The notes beneath the pieces were generated by a model. It searched no databases. It worked only from the letters and a program-made list of their open reading frames with translations, and was not told the origin of the DNA. DNA of 25,128 nt from a virus: positions 1-25,128 of the IMG/VR virus record IMGVR_UViG_3300017727_003125. The stretch is one strand, 5' to 3'. Below, one piece after another: positions 1 to 20,300 of this stretch (positions are counted from its first letter, which is position 1; every line of letters starts with the position of its first letter). The position numbers and the translations under genes are program-made.

Positions 1-2529
1 ATTGATAATATTTTTTATATCAGGATTACGAGGGTCTGCTAATATACTCCTATTACCTAATGCACGATTACCACTTTCTGATTTACCTTGAAACCAACCT
101 ACAATCTTGCCATCTGCTATTGCTTGTGCTATCTCTTTATATGATGTTAATTTTTCATCACCTTTATATTCATATTCTTTACCAGCAAACGTTTTTGTTT
201 TATGAATATTTTTATTTAATACATAGTCAGCATGTTGATATGTTCCTAAAGCTTGACCCTCATCACCTACAGCAGGTGGTATAAAAACATTTTTATAATG
301 TTTTGTAAATTCTTCATTCATATATCCATTGTAAGCTACGCCACCGGCAACACATAAATTATCACAACTTTTTAAAGGATAAACAAATTCTTTTATCTTA
401 TCTATTGTAAATTTTTGTAGAGTAAACGCCAAATCATCTATACTATCTAATTTAATATGTTTAAAATGTTTTTGTTTTTTTTCTGTTATAGGTCCATCTA
501 AAATAGTTTCAAATATGTCATAATAGTATTGATTATATTTTCCATAACCAACTTTACCCATAAGTTTACTTGCGCCAAGTGTTCCAAATCCTGTTAAATT
601 TGACATATGATTCCATAACCATCCAATTGGTAACTTATCTGATAAATCTATTAAGTTTTGATTTTTGTCAAAGAATACACATCTATATTTTGATCCTATA
701 CCATCTATTGCTAATATATCAGATTGTTCAAAACCTGAATTAAGAAAGGCATATGTAGCATGTGATTGATGATGGTCTATAAAGTATATATCATCTTTGA
801 GATAATAGTCCCACAATTTTTTAGGCTCATAATTAAATATATCTTTTGGTAATAACTCTTTACAATTTCTAATACCACCATATGTGTAAGTAAATGCTAA
901 AATACCATTTGTTCCGTCTCGTTCAAGTTTATCCCAATAATCTAGCATAAATTCATTATTTAAACGATAGTCAGTAGGATTTAATATATCTGATTGATGA
1001 GCATACGCTTCTACTTTGTATGGTAGATTGTGTTTAAATCTAGTTTCTCTTTCTCTTTGATCATGCCATACACCATCATATGCATTATGATCATGTAAAT
1101 TTAAAGCTAATGAATATATTTTTTTCACTCTTTTTTTCTCATTATATTTTTTCAATTCAGGATACACATCAAATAAATTCATGTTCCATTTAGTATCTTT
1201 ATAATATTTATCCAATGATAATAAGTAGTCAATTGTGTCTAAATAAGATAATCCGTTATTGTCTTCTCTTAATACATTTTGTATATCAGGAAAGTTATTA
1301 TACTTTGGTATAAGTTTTTCTTTTATTTCATCAGGTAAAACATTAGCACATAACTTTGCTGGCCCTCTTATATTAGACCAGTTAATTTGTTTAAATAATT
1401 CTTTGTTGTTATCAAACCATTCTATAAGTTCGTAAAATCTCAAAACACTTAAAAAAGATATAGTCCCATTTACATTTATTTCTACATTAGGAAATTGTCG
1501 TATTGTTTTAATGTTATTAACTATATCTTCCCAATTTGATCTACGTCTAATATATTCATCAGCTTTTCCTATGCCATCAAGTGATACAGTAACTTCAAAC
1601 GTTTTAAAATATTTAATATAATCTGTAATTTTATATTTACCATGTCCTAAAACCGACATATTAGTTTGAAATTTTACTGTCATATGTTTAGTTAAACCTG
1701 TTTTTATTATTGCGTCAAGTAATTGATAATATTGTTTCATAACTAATGGTTCGCCACCAATTAATTTAAGATTATAAATGTAGGGGGAAATATCTACTAT
1801 TTGATCAATTATATCTTTAAGAGGTGCGCCTTTAATCTGATTAACTTTAGTCTTGTTGCCATTTTCAATACCGTATTTGTTGAATGTTGTTTGATCTTTT
1901 AGTTCATCAGAGTTCATTGTTTTAATTCTTGTAGATGAATCATAAGTATGACACATAAAACAATCTAGATTACATTGATTACCAAATGCTTTAATCTGTA
2001 CTTCAAAAATTTTATGTTCTAAATGACCTCTACCTGTATGTTTAAATGCCTCAACTGCCTTTGCCATTTCAGGCCATAATCCATCATTGTTACTTTGTAT
2101 TTTTAAAGAAGCCTGTCTCCTTGATCTGCCATATAATTTTTCTTGTTTAATACATGATACACACGATTTTTTTGTTAATTTTAAATCTGAACCGGGTGTT
2201 ATCATTTCATTTCGTAGTTGATTTAGTTTAAGATCATTTTCAAACCAATCTCTTATTGATGTATTTCTTATATTAGAACCAAATTGATTTACGTCAGCCC
2301 AAGAACATGGTGCAAAATCACCATTAACGTCTGTATATAACTGTTGAAAAGGAGCACTACAAAAATAAATGTCTTCTTCTTTAATTTGTTTTTCAAACGG
2401 ACCTAAATGTATTCTTTGATCCTCAAACCATTTAGATGTATCTACTTTACCATCTCCTAAAAACTTATCGCCAGGACCACCTTTAGTTAAATGTTCAGGA
2501 AGTTTATCATTAGGATTATCTTTAATCAT
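1..2529 (-). CDS. Radical SAM / carbamoyltransferase fusion protein, C-terminus cut by window edge
   Basis: The minus frame starting at ATG 2529-2527 is open for 843 codons to position 1; I read every triplet and found no stop. Residues ~60-150 form a SPASM-like domain (FCSAPF, APCSW, CVSC). A radical SAM core follows, with the [4Fe-4S] motif CNLDCFMC at C186, C190 and C193, then IGGEPL at ~257-262. After ELKKYNEKKR the frame continues from ~468 into a NodU/CmcH/TobZ-type carbamoyltransferase: HHQSHATYAF, then AIDG, then AGGVAYNGYMN, DEGQALG and GWFQGKSESGNRALGNRS. Carbamoyltransferases of this family move a carbamoyl group from carbamoyl phosphate, through an adenylate, to a hydroxyl of a sugar or natural product. 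The first ~465 residues resemble the 536-residue protein at 6852-8462, which ends where the fusion begins. The start overlaps the upstream stop by 8 bases (ATGATTAA). Substrate unknown; the C-terminal part lies outside the window. Confidence 0.9.
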   Translation of the reverse strand, partial: MIKDNPNDKLPEHLTKGGPGDKFLGDGKVDTSKWFEDQRIHLGPFEKQIKEEDIYFCSAPFQQLYTDVNGDFAPCSWADVNQFGSNIRNTSIRDWFENDLKLNQLRNEMITPGSDLKLTKKSCVSCIKQEKLYGRSRRQASLKIQSNNDGLWPEMAKAVEAFKHTGRGHLEHKIFEVQIKAFGNQCNLDCFMCHTYDSSTRIKTMNSDELKDQTTFNKYGIENGNKTKVNQIKGAPLKDIIDQIVDISPYIYNLKLIGGEPLVMKQYYQLLDAIIKTGLTKHMTVKFQTNMSVLGHGKYKITDYIKYFKTFEVTVSLDGIGKADEYIRRRSNWEDIVNNIKTIRQFPNVEINVNGTISFLSVLRFYELIEWFDNNKELFKQINWSNIRGPAKLCANVLPDEIKEKLIPKYNNFPDIQNVLREDNNGLSYLDTIDYLLSLDKYYKDTKWNMNLFDVYPELKKYNEKKRVKKIYSLALNLHDHNAYDGVWHDQRERETRFKHNLPYKVEAYAHQSDILNPTDYRLNNEFMLDYWDKLERDGTNGILAFTYTYGGIRNCKELLPKDIFNYEPKKLWDYYLKDDIYFIDHHQSHATYAFLNSGFEQSDILAIDGIGSKYRCVFFDKNQNLIDLSDKLPIGWLWNHMSNLTGFGTLGASKLMGKVGYGKYNQYYYDIFETILDGPITEKKQKHFKHIKLDSIDDLAFTLQKFTIDKIKEFVYPLKSCDNLCVAGGVAYNGYMNEEFTKHYKNVFIPPAVGDEGQALGTYQHADYVLNKNIHKTKTFAGKEYEYKGDEKLTSYKEIAQAIADGKIVGWFQGKSESGNRALGNRSILADPRNPDIKNIIN

Positions 2530-3121
2530 TATACGAAAGTCTTAATTGTTCAAATTTATCTGTCAAGTTTATATTAAATGATTTATGATCTTGTATATGT
2601 TCGTATAATTGTTTAAATCCATTGTAAGCTCTTTCAACTTGATTTACTCCTGGTTGTTCATATTCTGCACACATGGGTAAGTGTATTGTAGTATAAAATC
2701 CTAAATTTGACCAATGCACAGCACTAAATTCTTTTGCATTAACAACACAACCTCCTAAATTACAACCTCCTATAATTATTTGAGTTTTACTAGGTTTAAC
2801 TGTCCAACCTGTAACTTCAAATATTAAATCTGAAATTTTTTTAATAGAATATTTTCCGTCATCATTTGAATGAGGTTCATCAATTTGTAAAACATTAAAA
2901 TCATAATGTTGTTTGGCCATTTTTAATATTTCTGTTAATTTTGTATCGTAGTTTCTTTCCATATTTGAAACTATAATTGTTTTTTTTCTATCAATATTAT
3001 TACAAAGCACAAATCTTTGTAGTTCAGCGTATCTTCTATTATTTACATACTCATCACCTAATATAGGGTGTCCTAGAAAGTCAATTAGAAGTAAAACAGT
3101 ATATGATTTATTCAAATCCAT
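2522..3121 (-). CDS. Isochorismatase-like (cysteine hydrolase fold) protein, tentative
   Basis: A 199-residue protein with two features of the isochorismatase-like fold. There is an N-terminal hydrophobic strand ending in Asp (TVLLLIDF, D14), and a strand-glycine-cysteine segment (IIIGGCNLGGCVV) in which C125 sits where the nucleophile lies in G-x-x-T-x-x-C-V. Such enzymes hydrolyse amide or vinyl-ether bonds using an Asp-Lys-Cys triad; I could not place the Lys with confidence, and the usual Thr is missing. Its start lies one base after the stop of the preceding radical SAM gene (TAA-A-ATG), and its own end overlaps the start of the fusion gene, so it is an internal member of the operon. It could also be an unrelated Rossmann-like protein. 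The assignment rests on a few residues only. Confidence 0.4.
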   Translation of the reverse strand: MDLNKSYTVLLLIDFLGHPILGDEYVNNRRYAELQRFVLCNNIDRKKTIIVSNMERNYDTKLTEILKMAKQHYDFNVLQIDEPHSNDDGKYSIKKISDLIFEVTGWTVKPSKTQIIIGGCNLGGCVVNAKEFSAVHWSNLGFYTTIHLPMCAEYEQPGVNQVERAYNGFKQLYEHIQDHKSFNINLTDKFEQLRLSYND

Positions 3122-3122
3122 T

Positions 3123-3755
3123 TTATTTACCTTGAGTCCTATCTAAACTTAAATTTTTATTTGTAGGTCTCAAAGGATCACCTGGACCCATCCACCTTGA
3201 TGAATTAATTACTACAAATTTTACTCCTATTTTATCTGCCATATCTCTACATGCTTCAATATCATTTTCATTAAAGCTAAATACAATAAATTGCCATATA
3301 GGTGTATTCTTTAAATACTTAATACTATCTTTCATTATATTATATAATTTTTCACCGTCTTGATTAGTTCTATACTTATGACTATCTTTAGGAAAACCAT
3401 CTATACCAAACCACCATTGAGCTCTTGGATTTGCTTCAAAGGCTTTAGGATACCACTTTAAAGGTTTAGCTGCTGAAGCATGATGAATACTGGTTGTATG
3501 ATTTTTTCTTGCATATATCATTTCTAGTAATTGTATAAATTTTGGGTGATGAACAGGATCAGATACTTGACCACAAAAATTTATATGATTAAAAAAGTTA
3601 AGCACTTTTTCAAAATCTTCAATAGAAATGTCTTCGCCAGGAACTTTTAACCCCTTACTTGTAAATGAAGTGTATCTTTGACATCTTTTACATTCTAATG
3701 GACATCTATGTGTGATATCGATATTGATACCTCTTCTATTAAATAGAGTATCCAT
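3123..3755 (-). CDS. Radical SAM core protein without its own SPASM domain
   Basis: A 210-residue protein. INIDITHRCPLECKRC carries the radical SAM cluster motif CX3CX2C (C18, C22, C25), which binds the [4Fe-4S] cluster that cleaves S-adenosylmethionine. FCGQVSDP lies where the GGEP strand is normally found, and WWFGIDGFPKD resembles the beta-strand 4 segment of related proteins. It is short for the family and lacks C-terminal auxiliary-cluster cysteines. The gene transcribed just before it, one base away, encodes a lone SPASM-like domain, so the two probably act as a split enzyme. The next gene downstream also starts one base after this stop. The substrate cannot be read from the sequence. 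Confidence 0.8.
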   Translation of the reverse strand: MDTLFNRRGINIDITHRCPLECKRCQRYTSFTSKGLKVPGEDISIEDFEKVLNFFNHINFCGQVSDPVHHPKFIQLLEMIYARKNHTTSIHHASAAKPLKWYPKAFEANPRAQWWFGIDGFPKDSHKYRTNQDGEKLYNIMKDSIKYLKNTPIWQFIVFSFNENDIEACRDMADKIGVKFVVINSSRWMGPGDPLRPTNKNLSLDRTQGK

Positions 3756-3756
3756 T

Positions 3757-4107
3757 TTATGTATCTCTTACTCTTTTATCAAAGCCAGGTTCATATATTG
3801 TTTGTCTTTGAAACTTTGCCTCTTTTTTACATATTTTGTGGCATTGTGGAAACCCTTTTCCTTTTGCTAGATTTTTATTAAACTCAATCCACTCTGGTTG
3901 TAATAATATATCCTCTACACTATCATGGTCTTTAATATTACTAACTGATAATAGTTTTTGATATGTAGGATCAGTTCTATTGTTTTGATTATCTAACCAA
4001 CAACATGGTATTAATTCGCCTCTATTAGTAAAACCATAATTGTGTTGTCTTCGATCAAAACATTTTGGGTCTAATTCGTTTTTTTTATTATCGTCTTTTT
4101 TACTCAT
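3757..4107 (-). CDS. Stand-alone SPASM-like auxiliary domain protein
   Basis: I chose ATG 4107-4105 (MSKKDDN; 116 residues). It overlaps the upstream stop as ATGAGTAA, the same arrangement as at 4782-4789; an ATG nine codons earlier (4134) would overlap by 35 bases. The protein has the pattern of a SPASM domain without a radical SAM core: an early Cys (PKCFDRR), GELIPCCW, then SNIKDHDSVEDIL, and late cysteines (FPQCHKICKK). SPASM domains bind auxiliary Fe-S clusters in radical SAM enzymes that act on peptides or sugars. The N-terminal halves of the proteins at 6852-8462 and 1-2529 carry a similar pattern before their radical SAM cores. This gene is transcribed directly before the bare core gene at 3123-3755, so the order of domains is kept, but as two proteins. 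A partnership is inferred. Confidence 0.65.
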   Translation of the reverse strand: MSKKDDNKKNELDPKCFDRRQHNYGFTNRGELIPCCWLDNQNNRTDPTYQKLLSVSNIKDHDSVEDILLQPEWIEFNKNLAKGKGFPQCHKICKKEAKFQRQTIYEPGFDKRVRDT

Positions 4108-4789
4108 TATCGTCCTCAAATGAAAAGATATCACTAAATAGAGGACGAGTATCTTTTTTTAAACTGTCTTCACTCATATTTTGCCATTTATATAATTCTG
4201 ATCTACCTATTGTTTGTATTAGATACGGAAAATATTTAATAAACTTAAAATAATTTTCTTTTGTTTCCCATTTCGACAACTTCTTTGGAAAACAAATATT
4301 ATATGAAGTATCCCAGCCGTTGTCTAAAACGGATCCTGTAATTGCTTTAGCAATCATCCCAACTTCTATACTCCAACTTTCTCTCCCATGTGGTATAAAC
4401 CATTCTTCACCCATTTCCCACCTAGTGCCTGTTTTTTCACATTGTTCTCTAGCAAATTGATTACCTGGAGCAACTCTTGGTGTAAATATTAATGTCCAGG
4501 GTGCTGATGCTATATGAAACAGATTAGGATTTGCGTTATACTTTTTTCCTACATCTCCATCAAATTCTATTTTATTTCCTTCACACATTTTATATAGAGT
4601 AGCACTTCTTTCTTTATTTGGACCTAATACATGTGCTATATATGGAAAAGCATTTTGTTTTGATGTTGCTAATGGGTAACCTATTCTTAATATTTTTTCA
4701 ATTTCAAATCTATCAGGTATGTCTTCTATATTTGTTTTATAATTAACAACATGAGCTCTTTTTTCTAGTGCTTTTGTTATATTACTCAT
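4100..4789 (-). CDS. Nitroreductase-like flavoprotein, tentative
   Basis: A 229-residue protein whose segments follow the order of the nitroreductase fold. ITKALEKRAHVVNY resembles the N-terminal helix with basic FMN-contacting residues. EIEKILRIGYPLATSKQN resembles the I-L-x-x-A-x-x-A-P-S-x-x-N segment. FHIASAPWTLIF is a central strand, and WSIEVGMIAKAITGSVLDNG resembles the long helix that in this family precedes a Gly-rich stretch. Members reduce nitro groups or quinones; some oxidise azolines or remove iodine, all with FMN. The start overlaps the preceding radical SAM gene's stop by 8 bases (ATGAGTAA), and its end overlaps the next gene in the same way. A redox partner role in the operon's pathway is inferred. 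The similarity is by eye and weak, so another fold is possible. Confidence 0.45.
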   Translation of the reverse strand: MSNITKALEKRAHVVNYKTNIEDIPDRFEIEKILRIGYPLATSKQNAFPYIAHVLGPNKERSATLYKMCEGNKIEFDGDVGKKYNANPNLFHIASAPWTLIFTPRVAPGNQFAREQCEKTGTRWEMGEEWFIPHGRESWSIEVGMIAKAITGSVLDNGWDTSYNICFPKKLSKWETKENYFKFIKYFPYLIQTIGRSELYKWQNMSEDSLKKDTRPLFSDIFSFEDDNE

Positions 4790-5606
4790 TTAATAACCTC
4801 GCATACTTTCTCATTGGAAAATGACCCTTAGGTTGCACCCATTCAGTACAGGTTTTGCAATAGTTCTCATATTTGAACAATCTAAAGTTCATCATCTTAT
4901 CTACGTTCTCCTGCGTTAGGTCAAAGGTTTTAGAAAGTTCACTATTATTGGCAAACTTCTTACTACAATGTACAATATGTTTCTTTTCAAAGTCTATAAC
5001 AGGTACCATAGGGAAAGCTGCACACATTTTACGATCTATTTCAGCAGCTTGTAATACGTCTGTAAATTCTTTTGATCTACCATTAAATGCTTTCCACATG
5101 GTATTTTTGTGATCTAATTGTTTTACTATTTCAGGATACTTATGATTATAAGAGTAATAGTTTGGTGTTTTAACAACTACATTATAGTTGTTCATGTCAT
5201 TTTCAGGCACAAAATCAAAGTTACCAAGTTTAGTTACCTCATGTTCGTACCAATCCAATATATTATGTTCAACATATAATATATCTTTGTCTTCTAATAT
5301 ATAAGGATATCTCTTTCTAACAAATGAATTAGATAATACTGAACAAAAAAAATTAGGATTTTTCTTAATCTCATTAATTACTTCATCTAAATTTTTGATT
5401 AAACCAGGCTCACCACCTAATAGATTAACTCTTACTTTATAGTCTTTTAGAAATCCTAAAGTTTTTCTTAAAAAGTCCATATCTACGGTCAAGTTACGCA
5501 TTTCTAAAGTGTAACTAGTACAATAATGGCAATTCTTATTACACGACATAGATAAAAAGAAATCTATGGCCAAATATTCATTTTGTATTTCTTGTAAGTT
5601 TTTCAT
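4782..5606 (-). CDS. Radical SAM protein with C-terminal SPASM/twitch-like cysteines
   Basis: Starting at ATG 5606-5604 the protein has 274 residues; an upstream in-frame TTG at 5624 is less likely. No good Shine-Dalgarno precedes either start, and the gene lies over the end of the aminotransferase gene, so coupling probably drives translation. IDFFLSMSCNKNCHYC has the CX3CX2C motif (C22, C26, C29), and VNLLGGEPGL is the SAM-binding GGE strand. Towards the C-terminus, MCAAFP, VHCSKKF and NYCKTC give scattered cysteines that could hold an auxiliary cluster, as in SPASM or twitch domains. Its neighbours are a PLP aminotransferase and a nitroreductase-like protein, which suggests small-molecule or sugar chemistry. 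The reaction is unknown. Confidence 0.8.
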   Translation of the reverse strand: MKNLQEIQNEYLAIDFFLSMSCNKNCHYCTSYTLEMRNLTVDMDFLRKTLGFLKDYKVRVNLLGGEPGLIKNLDEVINEIKKNPNFFCSVLSNSFVRKRYPYILEDKDILYVEHNILDWYEHEVTKLGNFDFVPENDMNNYNVVVKTPNYYSYNHKYPEIVKQLDHKNTMWKAFNGRSKEFTDVLQAAEIDRKMCAAFPMVPVIDFEKKHIVHCSKKFANNSELSKTFDLTQENVDKMMNFRLFKYENYCKTCTEWVQPKGHFPMRKYARLLNE

Positions 5607-6852
5607 AAAATTTATTAAACGCAATCTTTAATTTTTTAGTATTTTTAAATGTTACTTCTTCAACATAACCTGGTGTTTGAAAACATTTCTCTATTATATA
5701 ATCATAAATAGGTTCATTAATTTCACCTATTAGACTTTTATCAATATAATCATCACCTATTAGTTTCTTCATGTTGTTTAAAAATTTAGTTTCTTCTTGA
5801 TCTAATACAATTAAAATTATATTGACAACTTTATTTATTTCAACATCTGTCATATAAGGATTAATTGGTAATGTCAATATTGTATCACATACTGTTTTAG
5901 AATTAAACATACTATCTTTTCTATGATAGATATTTTTATACATAATATTCTCAGATAAAGGCTTACTGTAGTGAACCTTTGCTTTTAGTTTTTCTTTTAG
6001 TTCATCTCTAATTTCTCTGTTTGGTAATCTGATAACATATTTGTGATAGTTATGATTAAGACCGTTTGTTGTTTGTTGAATAATTACACAATCTTTTAAT
6101 TGTTCATCATATTTTTTAGCAACTTCTTGTCTTTTTGTTTGGTAGCTATCTATTTTATTCAATCTATAATTTATAAAAGTAGCATTCATTAATAGCATTT
6201 TAGAGTTGTAACCTAACATCTCGTTGTCACCATGTTTTCTTAATTTTTTAATTGTATTAGCATATTCTTTATTGTCTGTTAATATAGCACCGCCACCTGA
6301 AATACCAGCAATTACTTTGTTTGCATTAAAACTTAATGTACTAATATCACCTATTGTACCTGCCTTAACATCATTTAAACTAGCACCTAATGATTGAGCA
6401 GCGTCTTCTATAAATGCTATATTTTTTTCTTTACAAAATTCTATTATATGTTTTGTTTCTGACATATTACCAAATAAATGAGGGTATACAATTGCTCTTG
6501 TCTTATCTGAATACATATTCTTTATACTATCAAGTGATAAATGATAAGATGAAATATCTATGTCACAAAATACAGGAGTAGCACCTACCATTGATATACA
6601 TGAAGCTGTAGATATCCAAGAAAAGTTGGTCGTAATAACTTCATCACCTGGTTTGATACCTAAACTTATTAATGAAAAGTGTAAAGCGTCTGTTCCATTA
6701 TTACATGCAATAGCATAATTTCTTCCAGTCAATTTAGTAAGACTTTTTTCTAGAAACTCGACATTAGTTTCCTGTTCTTTTTGCATAGTAACATCAAAAA
6801 GTTTTTGATATTCTTCTTTGTTTAGTATGTAATCTTTATGCCAACTATCCAT
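5578..6852 (-). CDS. DegT/DnrJ/EryC1/StrS-family aminotransferase with extra C-terminal region
   Basis: A 424-residue PLP enzyme. The N-terminal half carries ACNNGTDALHFSL (phosphate-binding loop), GDEVITTNFSWISTA, GATPVFCDID, FIEDAAQSLGA (Asp contacting the pyridine nitrogen) and SFNANKVIAGISGGGAIL, whose K179 is the Schiff-base lysine. This family typically transfers an amino group to a keto-sugar nucleotide or to a cyclitol. The usual domain ends near the conserved-looking TLPINPYMTD segment (~340). About 85 further residues (QEETKFLNNMKKLIGDD onward) look helical and are not part of the standard fold; I do not recognise them. The start overlaps the stop of the upstream radical SAM gene by one base (TAATG). 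It is the clearest sign that the operon makes an aminated product. Confidence 0.9.
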   Translation of the reverse strand: MDSWHKDYILNKEEYQKLFDVTMQKEQETNVEFLEKSLTKLTGRNYAIACNNGTDALHFSLISLGIKPGDEVITTNFSWISTASCISMVGATPVFCDIDISSYHLSLDSIKNMYSDKTRAIVYPHLFGNMSETKHIIEFCKEKNIAFIEDAAQSLGASLNDVKAGTIGDISTLSFNANKVIAGISGGGAILTDNKEYANTIKKLRKHGDNEMLGYNSKMLLMNATFINYRLNKIDSYQTKRQEVAKKYDEQLKDCVIIQQTTNGLNHNYHKYVIRLPNREIRDELKEKLKAKVHYSKPLSENIMYKNIYHRKDSMFNSKTVCDTILTLPINPYMTDVEINKVVNIILIVLDQEETKFLNNMKKLIGDDYIDKSLIGEINEPIYDYIIEKCFQTPGYVEEVTFKNTKKLKIAFNKFYEKLTRNTK

Positions 6853-8462
6853 TACTTATTTCTTTGATGTTTTGGTATATAATATTCTTTTAATTCTGGA
6901 AACACATCAAATAAATGTAATTCCCATTTAGTGCCTTCATAATATTTGTCAGCGTCAAGTAAATAATCAAATACTTCTTGAATATCTAATCCTTCTTCAG
7001 CAGGCATACGAAGTGCCTCTTGTATATCAGGCCATCCTTTGTATTTTGGTATTAAATCATCTTTTATTTTTTGAGGTAAGTTATTGGCTCTTAATAACGG
7101 AGGCGATTCTAACATAGCCCAATTTACTTGGTCAATCATATCTTTACCCTCAGTCATACACCAATCTATAACCTCATAAAATCTCATAACGCTAAGAAAA
7201 GAAACTAAGCCATTAAAGTCGGCATCTACATTATCATATTTGGCACACAAGGCAAGATTATCTTTAATTTTGTCCCAATTACATCTTCTTCTCATGTACT
7301 CAATGGTTTTACCTACACCATCAACAGAAGCAACCATAGAAACTCTTTTAAATTTAGGTATGTAATCAAATATATTATGTTTACCACCTTTTGTTTCTGT
7401 TAAGTTTGTTTGATATTTAAGATAGATATGTTTGGCGTGACCTGATGCTATTAACTTGTCTAATAACTCATAATGTTTTTTCATAATTAATGGTTCGCCA
7501 CCAATAATCTTTATACTTCTTATGTATGGTGCCAACTCTAAAGTTTGATCTACCATAGACTTTTTGTTTTGAATTTTTACTTGAGCTTTTAGTTTAGGTA
7601 TTACATAATCACCATGTTCATCTAGTTTTACATCTGGTTCTTTAATTATATTAGTTTTATCTCTAGTCACCCATTTAAAATGATCTAGTGTTTCTTTATT
7701 TAACTCTCCAAAAATAGCGTCATTCCATACACCATCATTAGCAACCTTTTGACGAATAGTAGAATTTTGGTGAGTACACATATAACAGTCTAAATTACAC
7801 TCTGATCCATAAACTTTTAATTGAACTTCTATAATTCTTTCGTCAAAATCAAATAGACCACTTGCTTTAAATAATTGTGCTGATCTATCTACTTTACCCC
7901 AAAAATCAAAATCGTTAGTATGAATTTTCATACAAGCAGTTCTTCTAGACTTACCATATCTTTTTTCATCTGAAACACATCTTACGCAATATTTGTTTAC
8001 GTTTTTAAATTCTTTTTCTTTGGGGTCAAGCATTTCTTTACGAATACCATTAAGAGCTTCACTATTAATCATCCATTCTTTCATTGATGTATTAAGTATA
8101 TTATGTTTACCGTCAGGTTTACCAAAACAACATGGTTGATAATTGCCATCTATTTCCATATATAATTGAGTAAAAGGAATATCGCAAAAGAAAATCTCTT
8201 TGTCTTTTGCTTGTTGAGCTATTGATCCTTTTTTAAGCAAATCTGGAATATAACTAAGTTTTTTACGACCTAAAGAATCATATTTTTTTTGAGGTTCTTG
8301 AAACCATGAATCAGTATTAACATTACCGCCAGTAGATTTATCTCCAGGACCGCCTTTAGTCATATGTTTAGGTAGTTCTTTATCCTGCTTTTTATCCTCA
8401 TCTAAAAAATCATAACGACTTTCTATATCTGTATCAGGCCAGTTGGGAAATTTTTCACTCAT
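6852..8462 (-). CDS. Radical SAM protein with N-terminal SPASM-like domain (paralogue of the fusion's first half)
   Basis: A 536-residue protein. Residues ~91-180 form a SPASM-like domain placed before the core: FFCDIPFTQLYMEIDGNYQPCC (C93, C111, C112), NILNTSMKEW, and YCVRC (C159, C162). The radical SAM core has ECNLDCYMC (C222, C226, C229) and IKIIGGEPLI. After the core comes KRVSMVASVDGVGKTIEYMRRR, then a conserved tail ending DVFPELKEYY. It matches the first ~465 residues of the protein at 1-2529 along most of its length, including the N-terminal LTKGGPGDK-like segment (MTKGGPGDK here), so the two are in-operon paralogues. Start and stop each overlap their neighbours by one base (TAATG). 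Radical SAM enzymes with this layout occur in marine T4-like phages from memory; the substrate is unknown. Confidence 0.88.
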   Translation of the reverse strand: MSEKFPNWPDTDIESRYDFLDEDKKQDKELPKHMTKGGPGDKSTGGNVNTDSWFQEPQKKYDSLGRKKLSYIPDLLKKGSIAQQAKDKEIFFCDIPFTQLYMEIDGNYQPCCFGKPDGKHNILNTSMKEWMINSEALNGIRKEMLDPKEKEFKNVNKYCVRCVSDEKRYGKSRRTACMKIHTNDFDFWGKVDRSAQLFKASGLFDFDERIIEVQLKVYGSECNLDCYMCTHQNSTIRQKVANDGVWNDAIFGELNKETLDHFKWVTRDKTNIIKEPDVKLDEHGDYVIPKLKAQVKIQNKKSMVDQTLELAPYIRSIKIIGGEPLIMKKHYELLDKLIASGHAKHIYLKYQTNLTETKGGKHNIFDYIPKFKRVSMVASVDGVGKTIEYMRRRCNWDKIKDNLALCAKYDNVDADFNGLVSFLSVMRFYEVIDWCMTEGKDMIDQVNWAMLESPPLLRANNLPQKIKDDLIPKYKGWPDIQEALRMPAEEGLDIQEVFDYLLDADKYYEGTKWELHLFDVFPELKEYYIPKHQRNK

Positions 8463-9259
8463 TATTTTACTTTCTTTAAAATTTGGTATTCTTCTAATAA
8501 CATATTTATCTTATCACAAACAGCTATATGTCCTAGTCCATTAGGGTGATTATCAAAATAAGATACTCTATTTAGTGATTGCTTATTTGACCATAAATCA
8601 AGTTTATCTTTTAATCTAAATCCGCCTAATTTTTTTACAGGAGGCCATCCCATAAATTTAGAAATATTTAATTTGTCTTCATATTTCATTATTGTTCTTA
8701 ATATAATTTTTTCATCTTGTTTTTCATTTCCTGGATATTTATCTTTAAAATTAGGATCTGCTCCTGACTCAATATCACTTTGACTTGGCATTAAACCTTC
8801 TAAATAATGTTCAAAAAGTTCTATCATTTGAAACTGAACATAAGTTAAATTATATCTTTCACATAGTATTTGAAAATCTAAATAATGCCCTAGAGACTTT
8901 TCAACCCAATAGGGTAGATTGCCATGTGTATTAATTCTTACTGCTCTCCAACCTTTTCTTCTATCATGTTTTAAATTAAGAACATTTAAGTCCTTGTAAT
9001 CTTGTCTTGGCGCTTGTGACCAAGCAGCAATAACTAAACCAATTTGACTTTTATCTTTTATTTTAATTATTTCATTTCGTAAAGTTGTGTAGATAAATTC
9101 ATTACCTTGAGCAGACAAAGCCACATTAATAGCTTTCATGCCTAGTTTTTCTGCTAATAATTCAGGCCATTTTTTATAACTAAAGTCCATATCAGGATGA
9201 GATATAGAATCAAAGTCATCAGTTGTATTACTATCTCCACTAACTATCAGATACTTCAT
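8462..9259 (-). CDS. SGNH/GDSL-type hydrolase or acyltransferase
   Basis: I chose ATG 9259-9257 (MKYLIVSGDSNTT), 265 residues. An upstream GTG at 9337 would add 26 residues lying over the upstream gene and placed before the first strand of the fold. KYLIVSGDSNT is SGNH block I, with the nucleophile S10. NVALSAQGNEF gives the Gly and Asn of blocks II and III. YFDNHPNGLGH near the C-terminus holds the D-x-H pair (D236, H238) of block V. Such enzymes remove or transfer acyl groups on sugars, lipids or polysaccharides. No signal peptide is seen, so the enzyme is likely cytoplasmic. It sits second in the operon, overlapping the PP-loop gene by 20 bases. A role in adjusting acylation of the pathway product is inferred. 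Confidence 0.75.
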   Translation of the reverse strand: MKYLIVSGDSNTTDDFDSISHPDMDFSYKKWPELLAEKLGMKAINVALSAQGNEFIYTTLRNEIIKIKDKSQIGLVIAAWSQAPRQDYKDLNVLNLKHDRRKGWRAVRINTHGNLPYWVEKSLGHYLDFQILCERYNLTYVQFQMIELFEHYLEGLMPSQSDIESGADPNFKDKYPGNEKQDEKIILRTIMKYEDKLNISKFMGWPPVKKLGGFRLKDKLDLWSNKQSLNRVSYFDNHPNGLGHIAVCDKINMLLEEYQILKKVK

Positions 9260-10088
9260 TAAATGCCCAATCTTTTTCATAACACCAAAAACATTGCCAA
9301 CACCATTCAGTGAAATTGTTTGTTTGATTTTTACCACCTACGCATGATCTCGTTATAGGATATAAATCTTTCATTAAATTTTCTTCTTTAAATACACCTG
9401 CAACAAATCTTTTATTTACATTTAAAAAAGGTTGATACACATTGTAACGCAATTCAGGTTTATCAAACACATCACGCCTTGGTTCACCTTGTACTCTTTC
9501 AATTTCAAAAGAACCCCATTGTTTAGGCCAATGATAGTTTCTCATTTTATCTGCAAAACCCATTCTAATTTTTACTGGTGGATTAGCTGTCATACCATCA
9601 AGTCTTAAAGGTTTACCTATCTTTTTCATAAAAGCATTATTCTGATCATCTATTGAATTGACTTTTGACATTTGAACTAAATTAAGACTTTTATATTCAT
9701 CTCTACTCTTTATCATTTTTTCCGCTCTATGATAAGTTGTTGGATCTAAATCATTATATGAACCTACCTCTATATCATTAATCTTTGAATGAGGAAAACG
9801 GTTCTTAATAAATTTTGATATTTCAATGGCTGCGTCAGCGTCTTTAGGAGCATTTACATCTCTTAATGTTAATGGATATATTTCTATATCAGGAAAATAT
9901 TTAGCTGTTAGAAAAAAGGCTGATGCTGAATCACAACCACCTGATAATGAAACTACAACTTGTTTAGGTATGCCATTATCATCATAATCAACGTCTGTTA
10001 ATGCTCTTTGTTTATAAGGTGATATACTAATTAAAGATTGTATTTTAGTATAAAAATCAACTGTTTGGTTTCCGTATTTTAAAATCAT
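9240..10088 (-). CDS. PP-loop ATPase with QueC-like four-cysteine site
   Basis: A 282-residue protein, first gene of the leftward operon. VVVSLSGGCDSASAFFL is the PP-loop (residues 49-54 SGGCDS), which binds ATP and adenylates a carboxylate or carbonyl oxygen. The C-terminus carries PITRSC and WCWQCFWCYEKDWAF; C249, C263, C266 and C269 match the zinc site of QueC, which ends similarly with a Cys-rich stretch and a basic residue then Gly/Ala-Phe. QueC makes 7-cyano-7-deazaguanine from CDG. The middle of the protein does not read as a typical QueC, so a sugar- or peptide-directed relative (for example asparagine-synthetase-like) remains possible. Two late promoter boxes lie 26-45 bases upstream; the Shine-Dalgarno is weak (AAAGAA). 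Confidence 0.7.
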   Translation of the reverse strand: MILKYGNQTVDFYTKIQSLISISPYKQRALTDVDYDDNGIPKQVVVSLSGGCDSASAFFLTAKYFPDIEIYPLTLRDVNAPKDADAAIEISKFIKNRFPHSKINDIEVGSYNDLDPTTYHRAEKMIKSRDEYKSLNLVQMSKVNSIDDQNNAFMKKIGKPLRLDGMTANPPVKIRMGFADKMRNYHWPKQWGSFEIERVQGEPRRDVFDKPELRYNVYQPFLNVNKRFVAGVFKEENLMKDLYPITRSCVGGKNQTNNFTEWCWQCFWCYEKDWAFNEVSDS

Positions 10089-10151: not shown

Positions 10152-10796
10152 ATGAATGATAATGATAAAGCTCTATTGAGATTGAGTACAATGTGTGATT
10201 GGATTGAATTTCCAGGTTTTAAAAAAGACAAATTATTAGAAGAATTAAGACCTTTTGAAAAAGACTGGAAAAGATATAATTACAATACAAAAAAACCAAA
10301 TAATCGTTGGGGATTAAGTGTAACAAGTATTGACGGAGGACTTCACGGTATTCCTGATTTATCAAGTTTAAGAGAATGGGAAGTACATACAGGTGAAGTA
10401 GTACACAACCACGATATAAATGTTCCTACAGACGTATGGAAACAATGTCCTACTTTACAATCAATATTAGAACCATGGAAACCTTGGTTAGGCCGTTGTC
10501 ACTTTTTACGGATGGACAGAGGCAGTTATTTTCCTGAACATTTTGATATTAATAAAGAAGACTATAGTTATGATGAAGTTAGATTTGTTGGATTTGTTAG
10601 ATGTAATGAAAAAGATTTTAAATGGATTTATGATGATAAAGTTATCAAAGGCAATCAAGGTTCATTATGGTATTTCAACGGCAATAAAAAACATAGTGTT
10701 TTTTCAATGATTGACGGTGTAATTATATTAGTAATGTGTTTAAAATTTGATAAACATTTATTTCAGAAAATTTTGGATTATGGTAAAGTAAAATAA
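10152..10796 (+). CDS. 2-oxoglutarate/Fe(II) oxygenase-like (Asp/Asn hydroxylase type) protein
   Basis: A 214-residue protein. GRCHFLRMDRGSYFPEHFD contains an H-x-D pair (H130, D132), followed about 50 residues later by WYFNGNKKHSVFS with H181. Together these give the HxD...H iron-binding facial triad of a double-stranded beta-helix oxygenase. The R-x-x-x-G-x-x-x-P-x-H-x-D wording is closest to the aspartyl/asparaginyl beta-hydroxylase group. The 2-oxoglutarate-binding Arg is not certain. The ATG at 10152 has no Shine-Dalgarno and lies six bases past a late promoter box; the next in-frame ATG (10191) has no convincing ribosome site either. The stop overlaps the TctA gene's start (TAATG), so the two are co-translated. 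The hydroxylated substrate is unknown. Confidence 0.55.
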   Translation: MNDNDKALLRLSTMCDWIEFPGFKKDKLLEELRPFEKDWKRYNYNTKKPNNRWGLSVTSIDGGLHGIPDLSSLREWEVHTGEVVHNHDINVPTDVWKQCPTLQSILEPWKPWLGRCHFLRMDRGSYFPEHFDINKEDYSYDEVRFVGFVRCNEKDFKWIYDDKVIKGNQGSLWYFNGNKKHSVFSMIDGVIILVMCLKFDKHLFQKILDYGKVK

Positions 10797-12064
10797 TGTT
10801 ATCTATATTATGGTGTTTGTTGGGTATTTTAGCAGGTGTAATTTTTGGTACTATACCAGGTGCAGCTGCCTTTCTTGCAATCGCAACATTTTACCCTTTA
10901 CTCTATACATTAGATCCATTTAATATATTGTTATTTTATATTGCTCTTCTTATTACTTGTAATTATACTAACTCGGTTACAGCAATCCTATATGGTATAC
11001 CGGGTGACGCAACAGCAGTGGCAACTGCAAGGCATGGTCATAACTTATTATTAAAAGGTAAAGGTCATCTTGCTGTAAGTAGTAATGCAATCTCTAGTAC
11101 AATTGGTTCTATATTTGCCATAGGTTTATTCTTAATATTTTTTTCTAGTATTTACAGCATATTTCAGTTTTATAATAGCACAATACAATTGGCAATTATA
11201 TCTTTAGCAGTCATATTGTTAACTGTATTATCAAAACAAAAAACTTGGCATACTATAATTCTTTTTATAATAGGAGGAGTTTTAGCTAAGATAGGATTTA
11301 ACAATGTGACTTATTCGACATGGGGAACATTCGGTATAGATTATTTAACATTAGGCATACCGTTTAGTGCTGTAATGATTGGCTTGTACATAGTACCTGA
11401 ATTATTAAAATTTAGGGGTGTTGAATTTAGTTTTAGAAAAAGCATAAAGAAATTTGGTTATTCATCAAGCACATTACCTGCAACAGGTATAGGTAGTTTT
11501 GTTGGTTTTTGGTGTGGTTTAATACCTGGTGCAACCAATGTTTTAGGAAGTTATTTAAGTGCTAATTTAGTTAAAACAGATATTAAGAAGATAGCGGCCG
11601 CAGAATCAGCAAACAATAGTGGCGCTTTAAGTTCTTTATTACCATTAATAATATTAGGTATACCTATTGTTGGTAGTGAAGTGTTAATTTATTATTTGAT
11701 TGTAAGTAAAGGATTTACTTTTGGTTTAGATACAATAGGATACTTCACCAATATACTTTACTATATTCCAATTATATTAATTGCTTGTTTGATATTATCA
11801 TGGGGGTATTTTAACATATTAGGAGGTCTAACTAGTCTTTATGAAAAGCATAAGAATATATTTACGATAGGTATTGTTATATTCATATCTGTAATGAGTA
11901 CATACATATATCCTGTCAAAGAATGGTTGTTGTTATCATTAATTGTATTAAGTATATTTGGTTTCTTTTTAAGAAAGTTTGATACATTTCCTATATTATA
12001 TGGATATTTTTTAACAGATTTGTTTTGGGATAACTTAATGAGAGTTATAGTGATATACGGATGA
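10796..12064 (+). CDS. tctA: TctA-family permease of a tripartite tricarboxylate transporter
   Basis: A 422-residue integral membrane protein with about ten or more hydrophobic segments. The N-terminal GVIFGTIPGAAAF and YTNSVTAILYGIPGDATAVATA match the first signature of the TctA family. The second signature is present at GFWCGLIPGATNVLGSYLSA and AAAESANNSGALSSLLPLIILGIPI, which follows the family's E-x-A-N-N-A then P-L-x-x-L-G-I-P-G. TctA is the large subunit that moves citrate-like or other carboxylates across the inner membrane with ion coupling, using TctC for capture and TctB as small subunit. Family members are usually near 500 residues, so this one is compact. No TctB gene is visible; a TctC-like gene lies at 13232-14011 on the other strand. 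It overlaps its neighbours by 1 and 4 bases (TAATG, ATGA). Confidence 0.85.
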   Translation: MLSILWCLLGILAGVIFGTIPGAAAFLAIATFYPLLYTLDPFNILLFYIALLITCNYTNSVTAILYGIPGDATAVATARHGHNLLLKGKGHLAVSSNAISSTIGSIFAIGLFLIFFSSIYSIFQFYNSTIQLAIISLAVILLTVLSKQKTWHTIILFIIGGVLAKIGFNNVTYSTWGTFGIDYLTLGIPFSAVMIGLYIVPELLKFRGVEFSFRKSIKKFGYSSSTLPATGIGSFVGFWCGLIPGATNVLGSYLSANLVKTDIKKIAAAESANNSGALSSLLPLIILGIPIVGSEVLIYYLIVSKGFTFGLDTIGYFTNILYYIPIILIACLILSWGYFNILGGLTSLYEKHKNIFTIGIVIFISVMSTYIYPVKEWLLLSLIVLSIFGFFLRKFDTFPILYGYFLTDLFWDNLMRVIVIYG

Positions 12065-13245
12065 AAACTTTAGTATTAGGATATCCTAGAGGTTGGAATA
12101 AATGGAAGTGTATTGTAAAAGCACTAGAGAATATTGGTCACGAAGTAGATACAGTTATTGAAAATTATGATGATATTGAAGGACCGTATGATAGAATTTA
12201 TACGGTTGCAGAAAGTCTATTACCCATACAAGCAAAATTAGAAAAACAATGGGGTATAAAAAATGTATCAGAAACAGCAGCTGATATATTATCTAATAAG
12301 AAAAAATTTGATGACATGTGTATATCTCTAGGCCTAGAAAGCTTAATTCCTTTTAGTGTAATACCAACACAACCAAAAGATTTAGATATATTTAAAGATA
12401 TTCCTTTTATAATAAAACCAGTTATAGGTTCAGGCAGTAAACCTGGCGGTATGAATTATATATCTTTTAAAAATAAGAATGAATTTTTATTATCTGTTGC
12501 AGAAACAGACTTACAGTTTTTTAAGAACAATAAAAGAGGTAAAGAAGATCCTGAATTTAATAATCGTATTAATTTTTATATGGCACAAGAACAACTTATG
12601 TCAATGCGTATGTGGAATCCATATTATTATGTTAATAATACAGGTGATATTAAAGAACTTGCATGGTTAAAAACTACAAATACATATAATCAAATTGATC
12701 AGTATAAATTTCAAACCAGAAATAATGAATTAATAAGTGTTAGTAAAGATGAAGTACCAATAGAAGTTAGAGAAAAGGCACATATATTTTTTGATAAAAT
12801 AATTAATAATTTAAAATTAAGAAATATGATATTTTCTGGACCTGATTTCTATAAAGTAGAAGATAAAATAAAAATGATAGATTGCAATCCTAGATTAGGT
12901 CAGGGATTACAACAATTAGATGATGTGCATAATAATGAAATATTACCTAAGATATTAAAAGACGAACCTTTTTCTTTTGATAAGAAAATATTATGGAAAA
13001 TGGCAAATTTAAAACCTGGTAAAATAAAGTCAGTTAAAGATACTTCTCATTTAAAAAAATATCTAGTAAAGACTAACAATGATAAATTAAAACCTAATGA
13101 AACTATAGCTAAGTATGTACATATAAACCAAGAACACAAAGCGCCTAAGGTGGGATTTCTAATAACTGGCACTAACGAGTCCGATATGCAAAAAACATAT
13201 CAGATCGTTAATGACCAATTACAAGAGTGTATTAGTTACTATTAA
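12061..13245 (+). CDS. ATP-grasp ligase-like protein
   Basis: A 394-residue protein. The N-terminus (MKTLVLGYPRGWNKW) looks like a pre-ATP-grasp Rossmann-like domain. FIIKPVIGSGSKPGG (~118-132) supplies the ATP-binding lysine and glycine-rich loop, MAQEQLM the hinge region, and KIKMIDCNPRLGQG (~272-285) the acidic/Asn magnesium-binding motif (D-x-N-P-R). These enzymes join a carboxylate to an amine or thiol through an acyl phosphate. The substrate is unknown, but a ligase next to a hydroxylase-like protein and a carboxylate permease suggests carboxylic acid chemistry. The start overlaps the TctA stop by four bases. The end runs 14 bases into the 3' end of the convergent TctC-like gene. Confidence 0.75.
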   Translation: MKTLVLGYPRGWNKWKCIVKALENIGHEVDTVIENYDDIEGPYDRIYTVAESLLPIQAKLEKQWGIKNVSETAADILSNKKKFDDMCISLGLESLIPFSVIPTQPKDLDIFKDIPFIIKPVIGSGSKPGGMNYISFKNKNEFLLSVAETDLQFFKNNKRGKEDPEFNNRINFYMAQEQLMSMRMWNPYYYVNNTGDIKELAWLKTTNTYNQIDQYKFQTRNNELISVSKDEVPIEVREKAHIFFDKIINNLKLRNMIFSGPDFYKVEDKIKMIDCNPRLGQGLQQLDDVHNNEILPKILKDEPFSFDKKILWKMANLKPGKIKSVKDTSHLKKYLVKTNNDKLKPNETIAKYVHINQEHKAPKVGFLITGTNESDMQKTYQIVNDQLQECISYY

Positions 13246-14011
13246 GAATAATAGCAGCTTCAACTTTATTTACAAGTGAAGTTGCATTGTTATCATTTAA
13301 CACATAAGTTTCTGTACCAGCAAAGGCAGTTTGCCATGCTTCAGAAGCTGATAAATCTGTTAAGACATTTCTTAACTCTTCAACAGTTCCGTTTTCAGCG
13401 TTTACAGTTACAATGACATCAACAAATGCAAAGTCTATATCACCTTTAGAACTAAAGGCAAAACAATTACCATCTGCTTCTACTTTAGCCTGTTTAGTTT
13501 GAATTGTAAAGATAGTATCAGCGTCTTTACCTAGATAACCTCTAGTAGTAGCACCACTACCATCATACGGTACAATTTCAAAATCAAAGTTATTTGATTT
13601 AGCTAAGTCAGTTAAAAATTTCTCAACAGCAGGTGATTTACCCCATGTTGCAATTTTAAGCATTTCACCATTCATATCTGATAGTGAATTATATGTACGA
13701 CTACAAAGTATTGTTTCATATGCTGTAACACCGACAATAGTATTTTTATCCATAGTTACAGACGGAAGAGATGAATCTCCTGGCCATTCTGTAGACCATA
13801 AAGTAAGTACATTACTTTTGTCAAAGTGTGTACCTGCTACAACTGGATTGTTTGCCTGAATGTAATTAGTGTTATCTAATTTTTCAGAAATCATTGTAAG
13901 CATTTGATGAAATGCACCAGTGTCACTACCTGCGTTAACTACAGTTGTGTTACCAGCGTATGACGTATTTGCAAATACGAACATCAAAAATGCTATAATA
14001 TATTTTTTCAT
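13232..14011 (-). CDS. TctC/Bug-like periplasmic solute-binding protein
   Basis: A 259-residue protein. MKKYIIAFLMFVFANTSYA is a clear signal peptide with predicted cleavage after SYA, so the product is exported. The mature part has AGSDTGAFHQMLTMI near the start, a central ILCSRTYNSLSDMNGEMLKIA, and FEIVPYDGSGATTRGYLGKDAD. The last matches the V-P-Y-x-G-x-x-x-x-x-x-x-x-L-G segment of the Bug/TctC family, which binds carboxylates such as citrate in the periplasm. It is shorter than usual (~300 residues). A strong Shine-Dalgarno AGGAG (14018-14022) lies six bases before the ATG, and a late promoter box precedes it. It probably supplies TctA (10796-12064), from which it is separated by one gene and a strand change. 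Confidence 0.65.
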   Translation of the reverse strand: MKKYIIAFLMFVFANTSYAGNTTVVNAGSDTGAFHQMLTMISEKLDNTNYIQANNPVVAGTHFDKSNVLTLWSTEWPGDSSLPSVTMDKNTIVGVTAYETILCSRTYNSLSDMNGEMLKIATWGKSPAVEKFLTDLAKSNNFDFEIVPYDGSGATTRGYLGKDADTIFTIQTKQAKVEADGNCFAFSSKGDIDFAFVDVIVTVNAENGTVEELRNVLTDLSASEAWQTAFAGTETYVLNDNNATSLVNKVEAAIILNSN

Positions 14012-17345: not shown

Positions 17346-20300
17346 ATGGCTACTTATCTTGGAAAATCACCTGCTCGTCTGGCAATCGTAACAGACGACA
17401 CTATCACATCATCAAAAATTTTAGATAATACAATTACGTCAGCTGATATACTTAACGCAACAATCACAGGTGCTGATTTAGCCTCAGATATAACAATCAC
17501 AACAACAAGTAATTTAACTTTTGGTGCAAACGGTCATATACTAGGTTCTCATGGAGATCAGATTAAAATAGGTAAAAATGCTTTATCTCTTAACAATCAA
17601 GGTTTAGGTAATATTGCTTTAGGTTTTGAAGCAATGAAAGCCAATGTTTCTGGTTGTTATAATACTGCCGTAGGTCACCAAGCGTTAACAGCCAATGTTT
17701 CAGACGCTGGTTCTTACAATACTGCTCATGGATATCAAGCACTTTATAATAATACTACAGGTGAAAAGAATACTGCTATTGGTTACCATAGTATGTATGC
17801 TAACACTACAGGTGAATACAATGCAGCCATTGGTACCGACTCTTTGAGAGCAAATACAACTGGTGAACAAAACGTTGCTCTTGGTCATAATTCACTTTAT
17901 AATAATACTTTTGGTAATGGTCAAGTAGCTGCTGGTTACAAATCATTATTTAATAATACAACAGGTAATTATAACGTAGGTCTTGGTGCTTACAATTTAG
18001 AATTTAATACTGTTGGTTCTTGTAATGTTGGTATTGGTTATCAATCATTAAACAAAAATACAACAGCAAGTTACAACGTTGCAATAGGTTATCAAGCTTC
18101 AGCATGTAATACAACAGGTGAATTTAATGTTGCAGTTGGTTTTAGTGCTCTCTGTTTAAATACAATTGGTTGTCAAAACGTTGCTATTGGTTATGAAGCA
18201 ATGACACTTAATACAACAGGCTCATTTAATACTGCTGTTGGTAGACAAGCTTTAAGAAACAATACAACAGGTCAGTATAATGTTGCTATAGGATATAGCA
18301 CTTTAAGACCTAATACAACAGGTCAGTATAATGTTGCTATAGGTTTCCAATCTTTGACAAATAATATTACAGGTATGAGAAATACTGCTGTAGGTTATCA
18401 AGCATTAGCATCAAATAAAGCTAATGATAATGTTGCTGTAGGTATTAATACTTTATATTCTAACACAACAGGTTTTAGTAATGTAGCTGTAGGTTATAGT
18501 ACCTTGTATGCTAACACAACTGGCTCTTATAATGTTGCCTTAGGACAACAGTCTTTAGGTGCAAATACCACAGGTCAATTTAATGTTGGTGTAGGTTATC
18601 ATGCATTGAGATGTAATACTACTGGTAGTAGTAACGTAGCTCTTGGTTATTTTGCAATGCGATCAAATACTACAGGAGAATTAAATATTGCAATTGGTCG
18701 TGAAACTCTTTATACAAACACAGTTGGAGTAAGAAACGTAGCAATTGGACGTAGAACATTATATAGTAACACTACAGGTAGTTACAATGTTAGTCTTGGT
18801 CAAGAATCTATGTGTCATAACACAACGGGTGCTAATAATGTTGCTGTTGGTTATGAAGCTTTAAGAAGTAATACGATAGGTCAATATAATAATGCTTTGG
18901 GTTATAGAGCTTTGTATGCAAACACTACAGCTAATTACAACTCAGCAATTGGTTTTGAAACAATGATGTGTAATACTACAGGTCAACATAATATTGCATT
19001 AGGTTTCAGAGCTTTAAAATGTAATACTACAGCGTCATCTAATATTGCTATTGGATATGAAGCATTACTTAAAAACACTACTGGTACATGTAACGTAGCA
19101 GTAGGTCATTGTTCTATGACTTGTAACTTAACAGGTTCATATAACACAGGTCTAGGTAGACAAGCTTTAAGGTTAAATACAATTGGTTGTAATAACGTTG
19201 CTATAGGAAATTCAGCGTTACAAGTAAACACAACAGGTAACTTTAATACAGCAGTTGGTTCGTCTGCGTTAGCTCTAAACACAATTGGTCAAAGAAATAC
19301 TGCCCAAGGTGTCTTTGCTTTATATAAAAATACTACAGGAACAGATAACGTAGCAGTCGGACTATGTGCTATGTGTAATAGCACTATAGGTAGTTTTAAC
19401 ACAGCAGTAGGTAGAAAAGCTATGCTTTCAAACACTACAGGTGGTTGCAATACAGCAATAGGTAATTCAGCTTTATTTGCAAACTCAACAGGTATATTTA
19501 ATACAGCTGTGGGTAATTCGTCTTCACAAAATACTACAACAGGTAGATATAATACAACATTAGGTTCTCAATCACTCTATTCAAATACTACAGGTGGATG
19601 TAACGTTGTTATAGGAAAATGTGCAGCTCGTAATTATACGAAAGACAGTACAATTGCTATTGGGTTTGAAGCTATGTGTGCCAATGATGTAGGATTATAT
19701 AACACTGCTATAGGTTATCAAGCCATGAAGAATACAAATTCTGCAGCTGGTTCTTATAACACTGCTCATGGATATCAAGCATTACTTAACAACACAACTG
19801 TAGAAAAAAATACTGCTATAGGTTACCAAAGTATGTACGCTAACACTACTGGAGAATATAACGCTGCTATAGGTACTGACTCTTTAAGAGCAAATACGAC
19901 TGGTGAGCAAAACGTAGCATTAGGTCATAATTCACTTTATAATAATACTTTTGGTAATGGGCAAGTTGCTGCTGGTTACAAATCGTTGTTCAATAATACT
20001 ACAGGTAATTATAACGTAGGTCTTGGTGCTTACAATTTAGAAGCTAACGTTTCTGGTAGTTGCAATGTTGCTATAGGTTATTGTGCATTAAATAAAAGTA
20101 CAAGTGCTAATGTAAATGTTGCTGTAGGTTATTTATCTCTAGCATGCAACACAACAGGAACTCTTAACGTTGCAGTCGGACATAAAGCGTTATTTACTAA
20201 TACAACAGGTGAAAAAAATGTCGCTATAGGTAGTAATGCAATGGATGGTAATACTACTGGAAGAATGAATAATGCAATCGGATCTGGTGCATTGCAACAA

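Follow-up and report, generated by a model that had tools for sequence, protein, structure and literature searches.

An in-frame fusion of a radical SAM protein and a NodU/TobZ-type carbamoyltransferase in viral operons, with a putative role in sugar tailoring

Radical SAM proteins of marine phages have been listed as auxiliary genes without a function. The viral contig IMGVR_UViG_3300017727_003125 raises the question of why one such protein should share a reading frame with a carbamoyltransferase, and whether that frame is genuine. The window analysed here is the whole stretch of 25,128 nt, and the gene in question lies at its left end (1..2529, minus strand), where it encodes an N-terminal-twitch radical SAM protein followed by a NodU/TobZ-type carbamoyltransferase. 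An initial annotation had reported both components in a single frame without naming a strand. Our reading of the ORFs bears this out on the minus strand, with an ATG at 2529 and 843 codons that meet no stop before the contig end cuts the gene. As the annotation had proposed, the frame could be completed beyond that end: the near-identical contig L004 gives a full form of 966 aa with a conserved C-terminal domain at its end. At the junction L004 has a single residue change relative to the window (E for K), and a second contig, L003, is identical to the window at the residue level.

Both halves are complete and under purifying selection

The first 465 residues of the fusion form a complete N-terminal-twitch radical SAM protein. 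The NCBIfam model N_Twi_rSAM (NF033640) matched residues 56–462 (1144..2364, minus strand) with 296 bits against a cut-off of 170, and the Pfam model Radical_SAM matched residues 182–345 (34.8 bits, cut-off 29.5); the Pfam SPASM model covered residues 57–113 with 18.8 bits, slightly below its cut-off of 21.5. The N-terminal twitch/SPASM-like domain (2152..2361, minus strand) contains Cys 57, 75, 123 and 126, and the radical SAM CX3CX2C motif, CNLDCFMC (1951..1974, minus strand), contains Cys 186, 190 and 193. All seven cysteines are invariant in an alignment of 45 family sequences, every one of which matched NF033640 at E 1e-10 or better. The unfused paralogue at 6852–8462 also belongs to this family, and its 536 aa product (aligned through its L003 copy) corresponds to fusion residues 3–462, in agreement with the earlier proposal that the radical SAM partner is full length. 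The NF033640 model stops at the junction, whereas in the fusion a carbamoyltransferase continues in frame.

The carbamoyltransferase half (1..1128, minus strand) has a complete N domain (Carbam_trans_N, PF02543; 62.5 bits, cut-off 24) and a C domain beginning at residue 801 (Carbam_trans_C, PF16861; 54.2 bits, cut-off 27), which is cut after 43 of 170 profile positions in the window and is complete to residue 966 in L004. The radical SAM domain and both carbamoyltransferase domains, which the initial annotation had suggested searching for, thus all scored above cut-off. HH..HA is the metal motif of these carbamoyltransferases, and that of the fusion aligns to TobZ, GdmN and NovN. Both domains are shared with TobZ, NodU, GdmN and NovN, the nearest solved structures by sequence and fold; unlike the fusion, the solved TobZ-type enzymes have no radical SAM domain.

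Purifying selection acts on both halves. In all 55 pairs of 11 fused genes, dN/dS was 0.19–0.35 for the radical SAM half and 0.08–0.22 for the carbamoyltransferase half, and the seven cluster cysteines, the GGE motif and HH..HA are invariant in ten distinct fused proteins. Both halves look like functional enzymes. A full-length structure model (pLDDT 67, 32 rows), too weak for the placement of domains or active sites, retrieved TobZ, NovN and GdmN as top matches in a fold search.

Fused, split and solitary forms

We examined the best-ranked 80 of 199 confirmed viral loci; the ranking favours long matches, and hence the counts give no frequency. The two halves were fused in one frame in 22 of these best 80 loci (L001 and L002, which are pieces of the window itself, were excluded), adjacent with an 8-bp overlap in three, and about 2.9 kb apart in one (L080). 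At the other 54 of the best 80 loci the fetched stretch contained the carbamoyltransferase and no fusion-type radical SAM gene. Scanning with the radical SAM family brought in five more fused contigs and a further adjacent pair. In total there are 27 fused contigs, which by their contig names come from 25 IMG datasets, and four adjacent overlapping pairs. The commonest state is a carbamoyltransferase by itself.

The presence of the same frame in 27 contigs from 25 datasets rules out an assembly or frameshift artefact, and the architecture was found in other IMG/VR viruses as the initial annotation had envisaged. That annotation had also raised the prospect of a missed stop or frameshift at the junction, and of homologues whose halves are always separate genes. 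All 21 fused genes examined are open across the junction, and the fusion recurs, though separate halves are common. Since separate halves are common, fusion cannot be essential to either activity.

Among 50,697 GenBank phage records, no single place covered 80% of the fused protein, and the radical SAM half had only three relatives, all of <29% identity. In one of the three, the marine virus AG-345-D19, a distant carbamoyltransferase and a distant N_Twi_rSAM protein are adjacent in the opposite order. Of 26 longer records with the carbamoyltransferase, four in which it is unfused have a fusion-type radical SAM gene (56–60% identity) 26–44 kb away; three of the four (G013, G015 and G018) have equal scores and look like near-copies. 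Pelagibacter phage Mosig EXVC030M, a complete isolate genome, encodes a carbamoyltransferase (Mosig_00089) that is 76.5% identical to that of the fusion and, unlike in the window, is unfused; no close relative of the radical SAM half was detected in this genome at E 1e-5. Given that the halves are often separate and that Mosig lacks a close relative of the radical SAM partner, the pairing is optional.

A fusion derived from a host was considered and rejected, as no cellular fusion was seen in our scans. A scan of genome contigs with two peptide patterns, both from the carbamoyltransferase half, returned three loci, all of them carbamoyltransferase alone. In the SAR11 (Pelagibacter-like) family, 176 of 297 genomes matched the fused protein; all of the matches listed include the carbamoyltransferase half, and their frames reach at most 680 aa. 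Most NodU-type carbamoyltransferases of this family are about 550–620 aa long and roughly 35–55% identical over part of the phage enzyme. NF033640 scored above cut-off in one of 385 genomes of one class, in a frame of 452 aa.

Both domains are known; in the open-licence full-text literature that we found, no account of the two joined in a single protein appeared, which agrees with the initial annotation. Two viral proteins in BFVD resemble the radical SAM half, A0A1B1IWZ6 (471 aa, 53% identity) and A0A1B1IX00 (974 aa, 36% identity); the latter is long enough for a fusion, so an unannotated deposit may exist. Neither accession was named in any paper text found in the open-licence full-text literature.

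The split form in L026 permits a detailed view of the junction. There, the end of the first gene and the start of the second both lie within ATGAGTAA; in the fused form this overlap is replaced by a slightly longer A-/G-rich stretch that restores one frame. The junction codon of the window, GTG (Val468; 1126..1128, minus strand), lies one codon past the start of the split L026 carbamoyltransferase. It is GTG in all 21 fused genes examined, which are related to each other, and is preceded by a purine-rich stretch. By comparison, GTG accounts for 22 of 377 Val codons in 16 genes of the window, and among 17 invariant Val columns only two are encoded by the same codon throughout. Weighing against an internal start, besides the relatedness of these genes, is the unexceptional level of synonymous conservation at the junction, the best conservation window there ranking 26 of 946. 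In the window itself the purine-rich site is also a weak one (-2.7 kcal/mol, with about 30% of codon positions equally good), and the site reaches -5.1 or better in 19 of the 21 fused genes. It is possible that the GTG is a retained internal start of the carbamoyltransferase.

The fused carbamoyltransferase halves are not a clade (p-AU 0.00055; 33 sequences, 10 fused and 23 alone), which suggests that the cassette and its partner recombine; on this tree the fused or solitary state changed at least three times, and most simply five times. The fused radical SAM halves form one well-supported group, which also holds the split L026 and separate L080 proteins and stands apart from the paralogues of the 6852–8462 type. 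Synonymous divergence is unequal between the halves, at 0.64 versus 0.24 for the pair L016–L021 and 0.33 versus 0.79 for L006–L007. Recombination near the junction or repeated fusion would explain the mixed states and unequal divergence, and we favour recombination because the junction sequences are similar.

A modular operon around the carbamoyltransferase

In the window the fused gene stands at the contig end of a run of minus-strand genes, several of which overlap. B199 (2522..3121), a recurrent cassette that overlaps the fused gene by 8 bp, has a conserved GG.N..GC motif. Family searches assigned B199 to no family; by eye we had the impression of an isochorismatase-like fold, which the search did not support. 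Gene C (3123..3755) encodes a radical SAM core alone (210 aa) and gene D (3757..4134) a twitch domain alone (125 aa). The two are separate neighbours here and occur as C-D or D-C in other viruses; together (3123–4134) they may be a two-subunit twitch radical SAM enzyme. Further upstream lie E229 (4100..4789), a divergent nitroreductase-like flavoprotein that, in 16 of 17 fused loci, separates the fused gene from F; F (4782..5624), a small radical SAM protein; and G (5578..6852), a DegT/DnrJ-type aminotransferase whose nearest solved relatives act on sugars or cyclitols. They are followed by H, the unfused N_Twi_rSAM paralogue (6852..8462); by I (8462..9337), a recurrent upstream gene with no family match that we read as an SGNH-like hydrolase; and by J (9240..10088), a PP-loop ATP pyrophosphatase-like protein with an SGG.DS motif, all on the minus strand.

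Comparison of loci indicated which of these genes are constant. At 55 loci with F and an unfused carbamoyltransferase, F is the immediate upstream neighbour in 49 and overlaps the carbamoyltransferase by 8 bp in 44; cassettes separate F from the carbamoyltransferase in the remaining 6/55 unfused loci and in 17/17 fused loci. Downstream, a methyltransferase-like gene and two glycosyltransferase-like genes follow in a row at 65 of the 66 loci for which 3 kb or more of downstream sequence is available, the sole exception (L043) having none of the three. The family evidence for this trio is weak for each gene singly: in one glycosyltransferase-like family, three of nine members reach Pfam GT8 (E up to 0.01), and the other glycosyltransferase-like protein matches a phage glycosyltransferase family. 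The order aminotransferase, F, carbamoyltransferase, methyltransferase-like and two glycosyltransferase-like genes is constant, and it recurs in Mosig, where the downstream three are 56–74% identical to their counterparts. These neighbour counts establish the carbamoyltransferase as a constant, near-universal member of the operon and the radical SAM part as an optional module before it. The initial annotation, which had the second domain joined to a complete radical SAM protein, was therefore right about the completeness of that protein but not about the direction of the joining, the radical SAM cassette being the part placed in front.

Other neighbours have been joined as well. J is fused to an H-type N_Twi_rSAM protein in L135 (6617–8902, 761 aa) and to a C-type radical SAM core in L119, L120, L247 and L249 (three contigs; in L119 at 7655–9031, 458 aa), and L030 encodes C and D as a single chain (10153–11205). 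The protein x290 has a gene of its own downstream in L004; in the upstream part of six loci (L200, L201, L204, L205, L224 and L229) it shares a frame with an H-type radical SAM protein. Family searches gave no family for x290; its C-terminal part resembles a GT-B glycosyltransferase in our own reading. These islands habitually join genes that are neighbours in the operon, and such repeated fusions support a common pathway.

The genomic setting recalls the host recognition cluster of pelagimyophages (Zaragoza-Solas 2020, PMC7029224), a hypervariable island between VrlC and gp14 that contains tail fibres, glycosyltransferases and radical SAM cassettes, and that was read as altering the host O-chain against coinfection or superinfection. 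The islands studied here resemble it in these kinds of gene, whereas the fusion is not described, and the word 'carbamoyl' does not appear, in the main text of that paper. The Mosig cluster sits between tail-fibre genes and VrlC. Tail-fibre-like genes were seen in the window, one of them with a Peptidase_S74 domain; neither VrlC nor gp14 was identified in it.

Candidate substrates and pathway

The operon looks like one for building a glycan or an unusual sugar. The superfamilies concerned allow for radical chemistry at a C-H bond and for the carbamoylation of a hydroxyl. We lean, with moderate confidence in the statement as a whole, towards a bifunctional phage enzyme for two-step sugar tailoring, encoded in a modular operon of pelagimyophage-like viruses. 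The aminotransferase and the small radical SAM protein F would prepare an unusual amino sugar or cyclitol. The radical SAM half, with its auxiliary cluster, might then oxidize, epimerize or otherwise alter the sugar, and the E229 flavoprotein that usually lies beside the fused protein could take part in this radical step. The TobZ-like half would move the carbamoyl group from carbamoyl adenylate onto a sugar hydroxyl, and the methyltransferase-like and glycosyltransferase-like proteins would methylate and attach the sugar. The product would probably alter a host surface glycan, protecting against superinfection, or decorate the virion. The initial annotation's suggestion of a common substrate for the two activities is consistent with the operon; the chemistry, the shared substrate, the glycan target and the biological role are our inferences.

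Fold comparison gave no particular pointer to sugars for the radical SAM half. Its model (pLDDT 88) had similar Z values against many radical SAM folds; BlsE (Z 11.8, 205 aligned residues, 3.5 Å) was tied with others, and the closest folds include the peptide maturases SuiB, SkfB and CteB, viperin and nucleoside enzymes. BtrN, a twitch enzyme acting on an aminocyclitol, was absent among the fold matches listed, and nothing follows from that absence. A prokaryotic viperin was rejected as an identification, with 23.7 bits against a cut-off of 180 for the NCBIfam viperin model and just 26.4 bits for PADLOC pVip.

The main rival to sugar tailoring by a bifunctional enzyme, tentative yet deserving of weight, is that two neighbouring enzymes of different steps in one pathway were fused at their gene ends, so that the tether fixes stoichiometry or coupling and there is no shared substrate. 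Fusion needs little, given the 8-bp overlaps in most pairs of F and carbamoyltransferase genes and the few bases by which L026 differs from the fused form, and fused carbamoyltransferases are intermixed with unfused ones on the tree. On the other hand, the fused frame persists in 27 contigs, its two halves are both conserved, and the same radical SAM family is fused to other partners elsewhere.

Two other rivals concern the substrate. Modification of a protein or peptide such as a phage tail fibre, as by radical SAM peptide maturases, seems improbable to us: the island adjoins tail-fibre genes and the maturase folds named above are among the closest, but the proteins scanned contained no precursor peptide or recognition domain, and the constant neighbours are an aminotransferase and methyltransferase-like and glycosyltransferase-like proteins. 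We give still less credence to nucleic-acid modification, which would draw on the likeness of the carbamoyltransferase half to a 5-hydroxymethylcytosine carbamoyltransferase. Another phage enzyme of the superfamily has the proven activity of making 5-carbamoyloxymethylcytosine (MetaGPA, PMC8670742). According to the published account, however, what led to the recognition of that enzyme was a thymidylate synthase homologue as its partner, rather than radical SAM or sugar genes, and Pfam searches found no thymidylate synthase or dCMP hydroxymethylase among the 20 window proteins scanned. Sugar tailoring remains the likeliest reading because the neighbours point to an amino sugar and the published view of the pelagimyophage island concerns the O-chain (PMC7029224).

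A bolder extension of the sugar-tailoring reading, which we offer as speculation, is a combinatorial line: recombination would exchange the radical SAM modules inserted into a constant chain that runs from aminotransferase to glycosyltransferase, and these modules would repeatedly be welded to partners (the carbamoyltransferase, the PP-loop ATPase and x290), coupling the radical step to the next. The carbamoyltransferase might retain its own GTG start and so yield both a fused and a single enzyme, and the resulting glycan would be lineage-specific. The fusion ties one radical SAM family to carbamoylation, and the operon ties both to an amino sugar and glycosyl transfer; together they yield the first concrete proposal of a function for a radical SAM family seldom met in the cellular genomes that we searched. 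If it is true, viruses that infect abundant marine bacteria would vary surface sugars through a shuffled set of radical enzymes.

Elsewhere in the window, a phage-borne TctA, the membrane subunit of a tripartite tricarboxylate transporter, is encoded at 10796–12064 on the plus strand (193 bits), accompanied by a possible secreted protein at 13232–14011. The plus-strand gene at 17346–23633 encodes a 2095-aa protein with many short degenerate repeats and a terminal Peptidase_S74 chaperone domain, which is probably a giant tail fibre.
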